Assembly: GCF_035083965.1 (NCBI RefSeq)
Contig: NC_089732.1
Coordinates: forward strand, 11,485,424-11,549,423
Direction: 5' to 3'
Source of the DNA: Branchiostoma lanceolatum
Taxonomy: Eukaryota; Chordata; Leptocardii; Amphioxiformes; Branchiostomatidae
Length of the DNA: 64,000 bases
The translations under genes and the position numbers were made by a program. Of this stretch, positions 19,947-58,815 are shown piece by piece; within the stretch, counting starts at the first letter, position 1; each line of letters starts with the position of its first letter. The notes below the pieces were generated by a model. That model did not search any database. It saw only the letters and a program-made list of their open reading frames with translations, and was not told where the DNA came from.

Positions 19947-20046
19947 ATGGGTTCGTATGAGGCACCTAAAATCAAAATTCACCGATGCCTAGGAGGGCCA
20001 GTCTTCGTGTTGTTGATCTTTTCTGCTTTAACGATGGTTTTAGCAG
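19947..20046 (+). CDS. Gene C signal-peptide exon
   Basis: The ATG at 19947 opens a basic N-region and a hydrophobic core ([16 protein letters not shown]) ending at a phase-1 GTAAGT donor, as in B and D. Confidence 0.82.
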
Positions 20047-56400: not shown

Positions 56401-58815
56401 TTACATGTCTTTTGTTTGTCTGTCTGTCTGTTTGTTTGTTTCTTTGCTTAGTTTTACGGTTTCATGTAGAATGCCATACTCCCATCCCGTTAGACATACA
56501 TACACAATGTATTGTAACAAATATCATTTCATGAAGTTACGCGTGTTATAAAAATAATGTTTTGTCTGCTCATACGCTTTTCACCTTGGTATTCTAGAAG
56601 CTGACCCGCATTTCTGTGGACAAAGCCAACATGCGCTCAGGGAACCTGCCTGAGAACCTGTCCAAGAACAGGGTGCTGCAGGTCCTGCCATGTAAGTGAC
56701 GAGTAGAACTTGACAGCTCAAAATCTTTTTATGACACATAGATTTTTCTCAGTACCTTACAACACCTATCTACATTGTACAAAGTAGTGAAGCATTCAAC
56801 GTACTTCTGTAATTTGTAGAACAAGATAAAATACTGCTTGATGTATATTCAAAGTGGTCGAAAACCTAGCTATTACAAAATCCTTTTGTTTTATGTCACC
56901 TCATTAGACGACACCACCCGAGTTTTCCTGCAGCAGAAGCCAGGTGTGAAGGGGGCCGACTACATCAACGCCTCCTTCATTGACGTGAGTTATTGCTTCA
57001 GAATGTATTAAGTCTCGCTGGTTGGTCGACTTTTCCGCTTTTGTTTCCCTGAAAAGACAAAGTCTGCTGAACGCTGTCATACGAGTCTTATCTTACGTAG
57101 TTCATCCAAAGAAACAAATGATTTGAATTACATTCATCATACAGGGCTACAACATGAAGGACGCGTATATCGCCACGCAGGGCCCGCTGGACCGGACTGT
57201 GGAGGACTTCTGGAGGATGGTGTGGGAGTGGAACTCCTGCTCTATCGTCATGCTGACAGAACTCAAGGAGAAGAGCCAGGTTTGTACAACGATTTGGCTT
57301 TGAAGACTTGTAAATCTAACGCTGGATGAGAAGATTGGCAATGTCATGTTTGTGAAATATTGTGATTTGGATAAAGCAATTAATGTTACACACATAGTAT
57401 CCCTTATTGACATGTGTTATGTATGTGTTTTGTAGAGCAAGTGTGTCATGTACTGGCCGGAGGATGGAAGTCAGTCGTTTGGTGACTTCACCGTGTCTCT
57501 TTCGGACCAAACTGACTACCCTGACTACACCCTGCGCACCCTCCATCTCAGGAAGGGACAGGTATGGGATTAGTGCCAATGATACTAGTAATTTGTTAGT
57601 TAACATAATTAGTATAGAAGCAAAAAGCAAAGCATTAGAAATATCTTTAGGATCAACGACAACGTTTTGGTCAAAACTATGTTATATCCATTAGAATTAA
57701 TCTATGTGAACTACCAATCATGAAGTATAGTCAGCACTGGAAATACCTTGGTGCAAAATACGTACTAGAATAATATGAGCTTGAACAGCAGTACTGAGCA
57801 TGTATTTGGGGCTACGCACATCTTGTACAAGTTGCATTATCTATAGTCAAGTGTCAGCAATTAGAACTTGGTACAAACAAAATGCAAAATGGCGATTCAT
57901 CTCTTCAACAGGGAGGCTCGACCCGCACAGTGCAGCAGTTCCACTTCCACGGCTGGCCGGAAGTCGGTATTCCTGACAACGCCGCCGGAATGATCGATCT
58001 GATTGGTCAGGTCCAGAAACAGCAGCAGCACTCTGGCAACGGACCAATCACCGTGCACTGCAGGTACGATAGTGCTGTAGTCACTTGACAAGGATAGTCA
58101 TTAGAACCCATCACTCAATATACTTTGCTACCTACCCACCAATGAGTTCACTTCTGTAACATACTGGTATATGTGCATCTTACCCTGAGTTGTGAACATA
58201 CATTTTTAGCCATTTGTGCTAACATATTTATAACACACAGTTGTGGTCGACACGAAACGAAGATCTGATGGTATAACGTTTCCTTTTGCAGTGCCGGAGC
58301 CGGCCGCACGGGAGCGTTCTGTGCCATCAGCACGGTGCTGGAGCGGGTGAAGGCAGAGGGTATCTGTGACGTCTTCCAAGTCGTCAAGACGCTCCGGATG
58401 CAGCGGCCTCACATGGTGCAGACACTGGTGAGTACTACATCTTTTCAGTAACTGAATAAGTGCGTTGTAAACATCGAAATGTTCTTCAAAGCAGCCGTGT
58501 AATGTACATAAATCTTGTCCAATACTCATTCTCCTATGGGGCAGATGGCTGGTGGAGTATTGCGTTTGATTCTATTCCGTTTGATTCGATCAATGCATTC
58601 AGCATTTGTACTAACAACTACTCAACCGTGTTGGTGCCATACATATTTAAAGGTTTTAACTTTTGCCCAACACCAAAACAACAATAGTTACTATTTTTGT
58701 GCACTGCGAAGCTAACATCTATTCGATCCATCCACCTCAGGACCAGTACCAGTTCTGTTACCAGGCTGTTGTTGAGTACCTGGACAGTTTCGACCACTAC
58801 GCCAACTTCCGCTGA
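38370..58815 (+). CDS. Gene D: receptor protein tyrosine phosphatase, PAN-PAN-EGF-FReD-EGF-LE(13)-Ig-FN3-TM-PTP-PTP
   Basis: A complete type I receptor PTP of 2010 aa. 38 exons sum to 6033 nt with all phases consistent; exon lists are in the block entries. Rough residues: signal 1-36, PAN 37-206, EGF 207-241, fibrinogen-like 242-473, EGF 474-511, LE 512-1123, Ig 1124-1223, FN3 1224-1321, TM near 1326-1352, Pro-rich juxtamembrane 1353-1408, PTP D1 about 1420-1710, PTP D2 about 1730-2010. D1 has WPD (Asp1618) and [10 protein letters not shown] (Cys1650). D2 has WPE (Glu1907) and [10 protein letters not shown] (Cys1940). It should remove phosphate from tyrosines at the plasma membrane. Its ectodomain matches that of kinase gene C, which suggests shared ligands or hetero-association. 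Stop TGA at 58813-58815. Confidence 0.9.
38690..38990. repeat. Possible dispersed repeat (SINE-like) in gene D intron 1
   Basis: GGTTTCGAACC at about 38727 is, on the - strand, a perfect pol III B-box match (GGTTCGAAACC). The flanking sequence has the texture of a dispersed repeat. I could not find a convincing A box, so the class is unsure. Confidence 0.25.
39459..39944. repeat. GATA/GATG microsatellite array
   Basis: Imperfect GATA and GATG units at 39459-39600, then an almost pure GATA array from about 39647 to 39944 with a few GATC variants. It ends only 24 nt before the PAN1 exon of gene D. Confidence 0.97.
39969..41529 (+). CDS. Gene D: two PAN/apple-like domain exons
   Basis: Exons 39969-40220 (252 nt) and 41272-41529 (258 nt), phase 1-1. 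They share with gene C the strings [14 protein letters not shown] and [22 protein letters not shown]. The 1051-nt intron between them holds a TTAA-flanked MITE. Confidence 0.8.
40387..41206. mobile_element. Non-autonomous piggyBac-type MITE
   Basis: 820 nt flanked by TTAA on both sides (40383-40386 and 41207-41210). The left terminus CCCCCATACACCCGA is the inverse of the right terminus TCGGGTGTATGAGGG with one mismatch. Internal GGGGTCATTTTTGACCCC palindromes occur, also common in this class. No transposase ORF. TTAA target duplication plus CCC/GGG ends is the piggyBac signature. Confidence 0.8.
41736..41807. repeat. Short foldback element
   Basis: GCAGAAATGTTCGCGGTGG and CCACCGCGAAAATTTCTGC are inverted copies around a loop of about 34 nt, in the gene D PAN2-EGF intron. 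Confidence 0.75.
42214..42468 (+). mobile_element. LINE C-terminal fragment
   Basis: An open stretch reads [20 protein letters not shown], then [14 protein letters not shown], then W-K-N-V. This is the usual tail of LINE ORF2 proteins (the RRLRWAGHVxR and GKRRRGRPxxTW motifs). The fragment is 5'-truncated and on the same strand as gene D. Confidence 0.7.
42551..42655 (+). CDS. Gene D first EGF exon
   Basis: A 105-nt phase 1-1 exon with six cysteines ([13 protein letters not shown], then [13 protein letters not shown]). Orthologous in position to gene C exon 22099-22203. Confidence 0.85.
42916..43611 (+). CDS. Gene D fibrinogen-like (FReD) domain exon
   Basis: A single 696-nt phase 1-1 exon codes a whole fibrinogen C-terminal-like domain of about 230 residues. 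Motifs: CADLSA start, [43 protein letters not shown], then IVWKSW and MMIRP. The residues before NCAND lack the usual Asp-rich calcium site (they read [10 protein letters not shown]). Gene C lacks this exon. Such domains bind glycans or proteins; in angiopoietins they are the receptor-binding part. Confidence 0.92.
43769..43882 (+). CDS. Gene D second EGF exon
   Basis: A 114-nt phase 1-1 exon ([21 protein letters not shown], then [10 protein letters not shown]). It is found only in gene D, next to the fibrinogen-like exon. Confidence 0.8.
44304..51127 (+). CDS. Gene D: thirteen laminin-type EGF repeat exons
   Basis: Exons 44304-44444, 44664-44804, 46102-46242, 46719-46859, 46953-47090, 47184-47330, 47842-47979, 48389-48529, 48762-48902, 49180-49320, 49470-49610, 50494-50640 and 50990-51127; all phase 1-1, one repeat each. 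The first eleven follow the [13 protein letters not shown] consensus. The last two are divergent ([16 protein letters not shown] and [17 protein letters not shown]), the final one matching gene C's last LE exon. Two introns in the middle (46860-46952 and 47091-47183) are both 93 nt and stop-free in frame. Confidence 0.88.
48288..48315. repeat. C-run followed by A-run
   Basis: About 18 C then 10 A in a gene D intron. Sequencing and assembly are error-prone here. Confidence 0.9.
51411..51710 (+). CDS. Gene D immunoglobulin domain exon
   Basis: A 300-nt phase 1-1 exon with [19 protein letters not shown], a [18 protein letters not shown] strand and closing ATLAVL. It is the intact relative of the broken copy at 26862-27090 in gene C. 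Confidence 0.88.
51889..52182 (+). CDS. Gene D fibronectin type III exon
   Basis: A 294-nt phase 1-1 exon. ERPEDITV start, [20 protein letters not shown] and the [20 protein letters not shown] end are almost shared with gene C. Confidence 0.88.
52762..53460 (+). CDS. Gene D transmembrane and juxtamembrane exons
   Basis: Exon 52762-52855 (94 nt) codes [20 protein letters not shown] followed by AAVGLFLYR. Exon 53294-53460 continues [10 protein letters not shown] and a proline-rich stretch ([17 protein letters not shown]) that could bind SH3 domains. The acceptor at 53293 (ATAAAAG) is the only one that keeps phase 2; it is not strong, so the start of this exon is less sure. Confidence 0.78.
53902..56250 (+). 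CDS. Gene D membrane-proximal phosphatase domain (PTP D1)
   Basis: Exons 53902-54032, 54296-54386, 54525-54601, 54834-54870, 55018-55115, 55218-55355, 55512-55666, 55841-55976, 56101-56250. Contains [37 protein letters not shown], the substrate-closing loop WPDFGLP and the active-site loop [10 protein letters not shown], all in family order. Catalytic Cys1650, Arg of the same loop and Asp1618 are present, so D1 should be active. Confidence 0.92.
56598..58815 (+). CDS. Gene D membrane-distal phosphatase domain (PTP D2)
   Basis: Exons 56598-56691, 56908-56984, 57145-57279, 57436-57561, 57912-58063, 58292-58427, 58741-58815. [26 protein letters not shown] and the intact [10 protein letters not shown] loop are visible. 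The WPD aspartate is replaced by glutamate (GWPEVGIP), as in several weakly active D2 domains, so D2 is likely regulatory or low in activity. Ends DHYANFR and stop. Confidence 0.9.

Follow-up and report, generated by a model that had tools for sequence, protein, structure and literature searches.

A stretch of 64,000 nucleotides (nt) from the lancelet Branchiostoma lanceolatum (contig NC_089732.1, positions 11,485,424 to 11,549,423 of the forward strand), referred to below as the window, harbours on its plus strand three receptor tyrosine kinase (RTK) genes, A (truncated at the left edge), B and C, followed by a receptor tyrosine phosphatase (RPTP) gene, D. Judged by their sequences, the neighbours C and D form a genuine pair of well-formed genes that share a block of ectodomain and transmembrane (TM) exons, situated in an array that trades exons, and they are less closely matched than was held in an earlier note, made by a model from the letters of this DNA. 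The explanation tentatively preferred here is that D is a real RPTP of the PTPalpha type, that it shares with C the origin of its ectodomain and TM segment, that exons were exchanged later, and that the two genes encode paired receptors that bear enzymes. Taken jointly, these claims are rated at just under even.

Gene models and the shared exon block

The models of C and D were built by hand, one exon at a time, with reading frame, homology and a crude scoring of splice sites as guides, and were then joined; the signal and TM segments of C were identified by eye and from the homology of their exons. Splice phases are consistent at every junction in both models, and donors are GT throughout with the sole exception of one GC donor in the SAM exons of C. 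Position 19947 is the ATG of gene C and position 58815 the last base of the stop codon of gene D. The window contains 0 N and has a G+C content of ~41%.

The C model encodes 1401 amino acids (aa) up to the kinase end with 0 internal stops, in the order signal, PAN, PAN, EGF, 10 EGF-like repeats, divergent repeat, Ig, FN3, TM, juxtamembrane, SAM and tyrosine kinase. With a signal, an ectodomain, one TM segment and a kinase that keeps the VAVK, HRD and DFG motifs, C fits an RTK. Its PAN domains stayed below the whole-protein Pfam cut-off (E<=0.01) and passed when scanned alone. The D model reads signal, PAN, PAN, EGF, fibrinogen-C-terminal domain, EGF, 11 repeats, divergent repeat, Ig, FN3, TM, proline-rich juxtamembrane, PTP and PTP (Table 1). 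The first PTP domain (D1) carries WPDFG and a HCSAGxGRTG-type motif and the second (D2) WPEVG, while the protein has a C-terminal YANFR, at residue 1957, aligned with YANFK of PTPalpha. The YANF of D is, as we take it from this alignment, the Y789 site of PTPRA; a C-terminal YANF is the docking site that defines RPTPs of the PTPRA/PTPRE type.

Among the best 60 of 259 PDB matches, which are a ranking of PDB chains and no tree, the phosphatase half of D was nearest to PTPalpha (746.8 bits), followed by PTPepsilon (674) and PTPsigma (601.5). In the alignment with PTPalpha, the KNRY loop of D1 reads NKFR in D. Like PTPalpha and PTPepsilon, D thus has tandem PTP domains behind one TM segment, WPD in D1, WPE in D2, close catalytic domains and the YANF end. 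Those two receptors have short ectodomains without folded modules of this sort, whereas D carries an ectodomain of PAN-PAN-EGF-FReD (fibrinogen-related domain)-EGF-repeats-Ig-FN3, with PAN, Fibrinogen_C, I-set and fn3 all present in Pfam, and departs from the short, module-free type in this respect.

Table 1 Positions of genes C and D, their exons and their common upstream element in the window
Feature	Position	Strand	Size and phase	Evidence or relation
Element upstream of gene C	19772..19864	+		counterpart 38175-38266; blastn 94 columns, 74%
Gene C, RTK	19947..33540	+	29 exons modelled	spliced model, Pfam
C PAN1 exon	20446..20697	+	252 nt, phase 1-1	PAN_1 E 5.3e-10, scanned alone
C PAN2 exon	20953..21213	+	261 nt, phase 1-1	PAN_1 E 4e-07, scanned alone
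C EGF exon	22099..22203	+	105 nt	Pfam EGF E 1.7e-06
C array, 10 EGF-like repeat exons	22700..25852	+	138-144 nt each, phase 1-1
C divergent last repeat	26108..26242	+		sister of D divergent repeat, support 100/99
C live Ig exon	26526..26825	+	300 nt	I-set E 8e-14
C decayed second Ig exon	26863..27097	+		stops in all three forward frames
C FN3 exon	27226..27519	+	294 nt	fn3 E 9.9e-06; 88% nt to D
C TM exon	27964..28057	+	94 nt	57% aa to D TM
C juxtamembrane and SAM exons	29566..30250	+		SAM_1 E 1.9e-05
C tyrosine kinase exons	30382..33540	+		PK_Tyr_Ser-Thr E 1.1e-90
Element upstream of gene D	38175..38266	+		counterpart 19772-19864
Gene D, RPTP	38370..58815	+	38 exons, 1961 aa	spliced model, terminal stop only
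D PAN1 exon	39969..40220	+	252 nt	PAN_1 E 3.5e-12
D PAN2 exon	41272..41529	+	258 nt	PAN_1 E 5e-09
D EGF exon	42551..42655	+	105 nt	best Pfam JAG1-like_EGF2 E 2.3e-07
D fibrinogen-C-terminal exon	42916..43611	+	phase 1-1	Fibrinogen_C E 5.9e-54
D second EGF exon	43769..43882	+	open, phase 1-1	EGF cysteine pattern by eye
D array, 11 EGF-like repeat exons	44304..49610	+	138-147 nt each
D repeat 6	47184..47330	+		sister of gene B repeat 1 (9256-9396)
D divergent last repeat	50990..51127	+		pairs with C divergent repeat
D Ig exon	51411..51710	+	300 nt	I-set E 4e-12
D FN3 exon	51889..52182	+	294 nt	fn3 E 7.4e-07
D TM exon	52762..52855	+	94 nt
D juxtamembrane exon	53294..53460	+		proline-rich
D tandem PTP exons p1-p16	53902..58815	+		Y_phosphatase, 2 stretches, E 1.4e-163

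The earlier note had described one order of exons for both genes (signal-PAN-PAN-EGF-array-divergent last repeat-Ig-FN3-TM), and this order was borne out by the open, phase-consistent models and by Pfam. The sizes it gave for the PAN1, EGF, Ig, FN3 and TM exons were likewise recovered, identical in C and D. All internal ectodomain exons before the TM exon are of phase 1-1 (16/16 in C, 19/19 in D), and the phase after the TM exon is 2 in both genes, where, as described, C continues to SAM and kinase and D to two PTP domains. A kinase-like match was found nowhere in the D locus, nor a PTP-like match in the window outside it (both E<=1e-3). The divergent last repeats of C and D are sisters (support 100/99; 48% aa identity), in line with the note. 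Its naming of the repeats as laminin-EGF was not supported by Pfam: no EGF_laminin match was obtained in whole C or D (E<=0.01), nor when three stretches of repeats were scanned on their own (E<=1).

The modules were also said to be near-identical in many cases, which overstates their likeness. Between C and D, aa identity amounts to 80% for FN3, 73% for PAN2, 68% for PAN1, 59% for Ig, 57% for TM, 53% for EGF, 48% for the last repeat and 36% for the signal, and nt identity to 61-88% over the TM to FN3 exons and 55% in the signal exon. For the PAN domains this is above the identity of C and D to gene B (68% vs 46-49% in PAN1, 73% vs 45-51% in PAN2). The C-D alignment score of the TM segment, 79, was equalled by 0/2000 shuffles, compared with 4/2000 for C-B and 251/2000 for C-A, so that homology of the TM segments of C and D goes beyond composition and is weakly shared with B and not with A. 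Outside the exons little likeness is left: 40-nt intron flanks (n=16) match at 20-28 positions, where 500 random pairs gave a mean of 19.2 and a maximum of 28, and blastn found in the introns one stretch between PAN1 and PAN2 plus short overhangs.

Upstream of both genes lies a common element. Its local score of 68 was reached by 0/2000 control windows (maximum 31; windows overlapping D's own element were excluded). A third copy was not present in the window (E<=0.1), and before gene B the element was not found (best scores 24 and 28).

Matched ectodomains, as proposed in the note, were thus found for the order of the shared block and not for its full content, since D has Fibrinogen_C and a second EGF, a different Ig, and 11+1 repeats against 10+1 in C. 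The fibrinogen-like domain, the different Ig and the unequal repeat numbers make an identical set of ligands for C and D less likely than an overlapping one. As the Fibrinogen_C and second EGF exons are both phase 1-1, a transcript skipping both would stay open and would match the order of C.

Mosaic divergence and exon exchange

The modules of the shared block have diverged unevenly. Synonymous divergence (dS) between C and D was 0.26 for FN3, 0.49 for PAN2, 0.54 for PAN1, 0.77 for EGF, 1.16 for Ig, last repeat and signal alike, and 2.4 for TM, a heterogeneity with a P of 5.6e-6 over the eight modules. The contrast of PAN1, PAN2 and FN3 with signal, last repeat and TM (without Ig) gave a P of 1.8e-6; with EGF and last repeat only, P was 0.004. 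The ratio of nonsynonymous to synonymous divergence (dN/dS) was 0.30-0.37 in PAN and FN3. Pooled dS of the kinases was 0.86 for A-B, 1.36 for B-C and 1.62 for A-C, over the six exons k1, k2, k3, k4, k5 and k7 that were also used for third-base counts (k6 was not sought in A and B, and k8, at 14470-14559 in gene B by tblastn, was left out). Codons for the same residue had an identical third base in 61/73 cases in FN3, 44/55 in PAN1, 48/62 in PAN2, 28/57 in Ig and 5/17 in TM for C-D, and in 103/189 in the kinases for B-C. Compared with the kinase dS, PAN and FN3 of C are thus nearer to D than the kinase of C is to its sister kinases, unlike Ig and TM. The longest identical run was 53 nt in FN3 and 35 nt in PAN1, lengths reached by 31/2000 and 36/2000 permutations, respectively.

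The decayed second Ig exon of C agrees with the Ig exon of D at 186/224 nt and the live one at 203/297 nt. Since the dead exon beside it is closer, the live Ig of C is not the nearest counterpart of that of D, and the simplest reading would be that the ancestral gene had a pair of Ig exons and that C and D each retained a different one. A trace of a second Ig in D was not seen by blastn (E<=1e-6).

The sharing between C and D is not private to them. In a tree of 27 EGF-like repeats from A-D, 6/24 inner branches of which were starred, repeat 6 of D and repeat 1 of B were sisters (support 100/100), with 88% nt identity between them and <=75% of D repeat 6 to any other repeat. The repeats hardly sort by gene: D needed 8 changes (mean 9.2 after shuffling, with 142/500 shuffles no higher) and C also 8 (mean 8.8, 201/500). 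Repeats of A and B belong to the same pool, and the position of D repeat 6 indicates that the phosphatase gene takes part in the exon exchange of the array.

On this evidence the two halves of the receptors join just past the TM exon, in the intron that follows it, as PAN groups C and D against B while A and B are closest in the pooled kinase exons. The sequence of A is partial because the gene runs off the left edge of the window. Genes A and B resemble C in PAN, EGF and EGF-like repeats, and from the TM segment to the kinase C is related to both; B and the left-truncated A differ from C in having no match to its Ig and FN3 exons (blastn E<=1e-6). Since B too has PAN, EGF and repeats, a kinase ectodomain passing to a phosphatase makes for a slightly simpler history, and the reverse direction is possible as well.

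Several repeats were noted within C and D. A 67-nt unit in 2 tandem copies, 93% alike, directly follows a short kinase exon of C (32603-32736), and the repeat array of C contains an inverted repeat (24475-24644) whose arms of 72 nt are 89% complementary. Immediately 5' of the PAN1 exon of D is a tetranucleotide microsatellite (39587-40001; 32 overlapping copies, repeat family D1). Related intron stretches of C and D, on opposite strands and ~70% identical by blastn (28881-29241, 45377-45681 and 49992-50313), are probably a dispersed element. Between the genes, an NXPE-like gene is located on the minus strand between B and C (15775-17858; NXPE4_C E 3.7e-80, Neurexophilin E 6.9e-19), and a minus-strand reverse-transcriptase open reading frame (ORF) lies between the last modelled kinase exon of C and gene D (34481-35392; RVT_1 E 1.1e-32). 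The ORF beside it, at 33854-34477, had no Pfam match, and the window contains 0 tRNA genes.

Readings of the pair

According to the preferred explanation, the ectodomain and TM segment of D would derive from the same source as those of C and would have been joined to the phosphatase half in the intron that follows the TM exon. Later exchange or homogenisation inside the array would have involved PAN and FN3 between C and D and an EGF-like repeat between B and D. We infer that each gene yields a single transcript, that the two are co-expressed, that they meet a common ligand and that their enzymes act. The shared block suggests overlapping ligands, and binding would overlap via PAN-PAN and Ig-FN3, with the fibrinogen-like domain adding a binding specificity of its own to D. 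Upon engagement C would autophosphorylate, an SH2 protein, for instance Grb2 or Src, would bind to the phosphorylated C-terminal YANF tyrosine of D, and D would then dephosphorylate the inhibitory tyrosine of Src or reset phosphotyrosine near C. A functional pairing of C and D is plausible.

A number of observations weigh against this explanation. A fibrinogen-like domain is present in D and not in C. The final exon(s) and stop codon of C were not found when the tails of A and B were compared with 33541-38150. Divergence between C and D in Ig, last repeat and TM is as great as that of the kinases. Single-exon dS is noisy, with wide bootstrap intervals for EGF, signal, last repeat and TM, and dS of the A-B kinase exons spans 0.41 to saturated. 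The longest identical run is not exceptional in PAN2 (1401/2000 permutations), nor in Ig (1681/2000). Recent homogenisation predicts matching flanks, and those of FN3 match at 23/40 and 27/39 positions, against the random mean of 19.2. Given these unmatched flanks, synonymous constraint could account for part of the low dS. Gene conversion is not claimed as the proven cause of the mosaic, since the FN3 and most other flanks are unmatched and PAN2 lacks a long run.

The best-surviving alternative is that the pair is a by-product of exon shuffling: a PTPalpha-like neighbour was fitted with an ectodomain of the array, the ligands and jobs of C and D are unrelated, and their likeness reflects ancestry and exchange. 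The uniform phase 1-1 of the internal pre-TM exons and the poor sorting of the A-D repeats by gene agree with it, as does the very high rate of lancelet exon shuffling with a 1-1 phase bias that has been reported (PMC4284660). The signal-to-TM block is however collinear in C and D, which is no random draw, PAN and FN3 remain most alike with a dN/dS well below one, and the upstream element is common to both genes too. This alternative is considered possible, if somewhat doubtful.

In a further alternative D cooperates with C, as a PTPalpha-type activator of Src docked via phosphorylated YANF, so that both enzymes push the same way. It is favoured by PTPalpha as the best PDB match and by the YANFR end. 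PTPalpha (PTPRA) has been described as a Src activator that dephosphorylates the inhibitory Y527 of Src, and its Y789, once phosphorylated, is reported to bring in Grb2 and Src (PMC7959691; PMC11048185). Sequence likeness does not fix the substrate, however, and the altered KNRY loop of D1 argues against cooperation, which is regarded as rather unlikely. The closeness of the phosphatase half to PTPalpha and the YANF end do imply that D may activate Src and not simply erase the marks set by C. The earlier proposal of an opposing-enzyme pair accordingly retains its adjacent genes, shared ectodomain-TM block and intact catalytic motifs, whereas its wording of writer and eraser is too simple.

A more far-reaching form of the preferred explanation, enzyme-bearing paired receptors with a shared promoter element and overlapping ligands, their PAN and FN3 kept alike by repeated exon exchange and their kinase and phosphatase output rebalanced by exon trading, is put lower still and would be distinctly unlikely.

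An artefact of the gene models, in which the PAN-to-TM exons and the PTP exons would come from two different genes, the former from a receptor gene of their own, is judged very unlikely. Novel domain architectures of lancelets have been reported to be often mispredictions, among them fusions of neighbouring genes (PMC4967905; PMC6071037), and the models used here were hand-built from the genomic sequence. On the other hand, the TM exon of D closes in phase 2, and 438 bases further on the following exon opens in the same phase with a basic stretch of the stop-transfer type; the D model contains no second TM or signal exon for its PTP part, and no kinase-like remnant follows the TM exon (E<=1e-3). 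Assembly or haplotype duplication, a risk named in the earlier note, is rejected as practically negligible on the 0 N of the window, the 55-88% identity of the exons, flanks near background and cytoplasmic halves of different families, which would leave only a misjoin after the TM exon.

Known receptor systems and significance

The arrangement of C and D most closely resembles that of the immune paired receptors, such as Siglec-11/16 and CEACAM1/3, with their similar ectodomains and opposing cytoplasmic halves. C and D likewise are adjacent genes with similar ectodomains and with cytoplasmic halves that are opposed by domain content only. In Siglec-11/16 the ectodomains are described as kept alike by gene conversion (PMC5701461), and exchange by gene conversion has been described for immune paired receptors (PMC5112662; PMC2832619). 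The immune receptors signal via immunoreceptor tyrosine-based inhibitory or activation motifs (ITIM/ITAM) or adaptors, whereas the opposing parts of C and D are enzymes inside the receptor. The earlier note knew of no described receptor pair of this kind, and a literature search, with most subscription journals outside its reach, likewise found no RTK/RPTP example among the papers it listed. In passages of PMC8662651 the terms lancelet, Branchiostoma and PAN do not occur.

Tie receptors resemble C in having EGF-like repeats, Ig and FN3 before the kinase, and the angiopoietins resemble D in their fibrinogen-like domain, for which angiopoietin-1 was the best PDB match (147.3 bits). This likeness of D amounts to a tie, as FIBCD1 scores 146.7 bits. 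Unlike Tie, C has SAM and PAN domains. Among the best 60 of 2467 PDB matches, considered without a tree, its kinase was closest to an EGFR-named chain (299.6 bits), RET (281.9) and FGFR3 (277.8); Tie is not among these 60, which do not support membership of C in the Tie family, and PDB does not place the kinase in any one family, since the top rows mix the EGFR-named chain, RET and FGFRs. Protein tyrosine kinase activity has been found enriched among dispensable lancelet genes (PMC12373286).

In the immune receptors opposite outputs rest on motifs and recruited enzymes; here the receptors themselves would be kinase and phosphatase, encoded by neighbours that trade exons. If C and D are a by-product of shuffling only, they still illustrate clearly how a catalytic half is swapped at a single intron. 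The pair is also a warning that families of ectodomains cut across the divide between RTKs and RPTPs. If the preferred explanation is true, the pair would offer a natural setting in which to ask how a cell balances phosphotyrosine at one type of contact, and how RPTPs gain their ligands.

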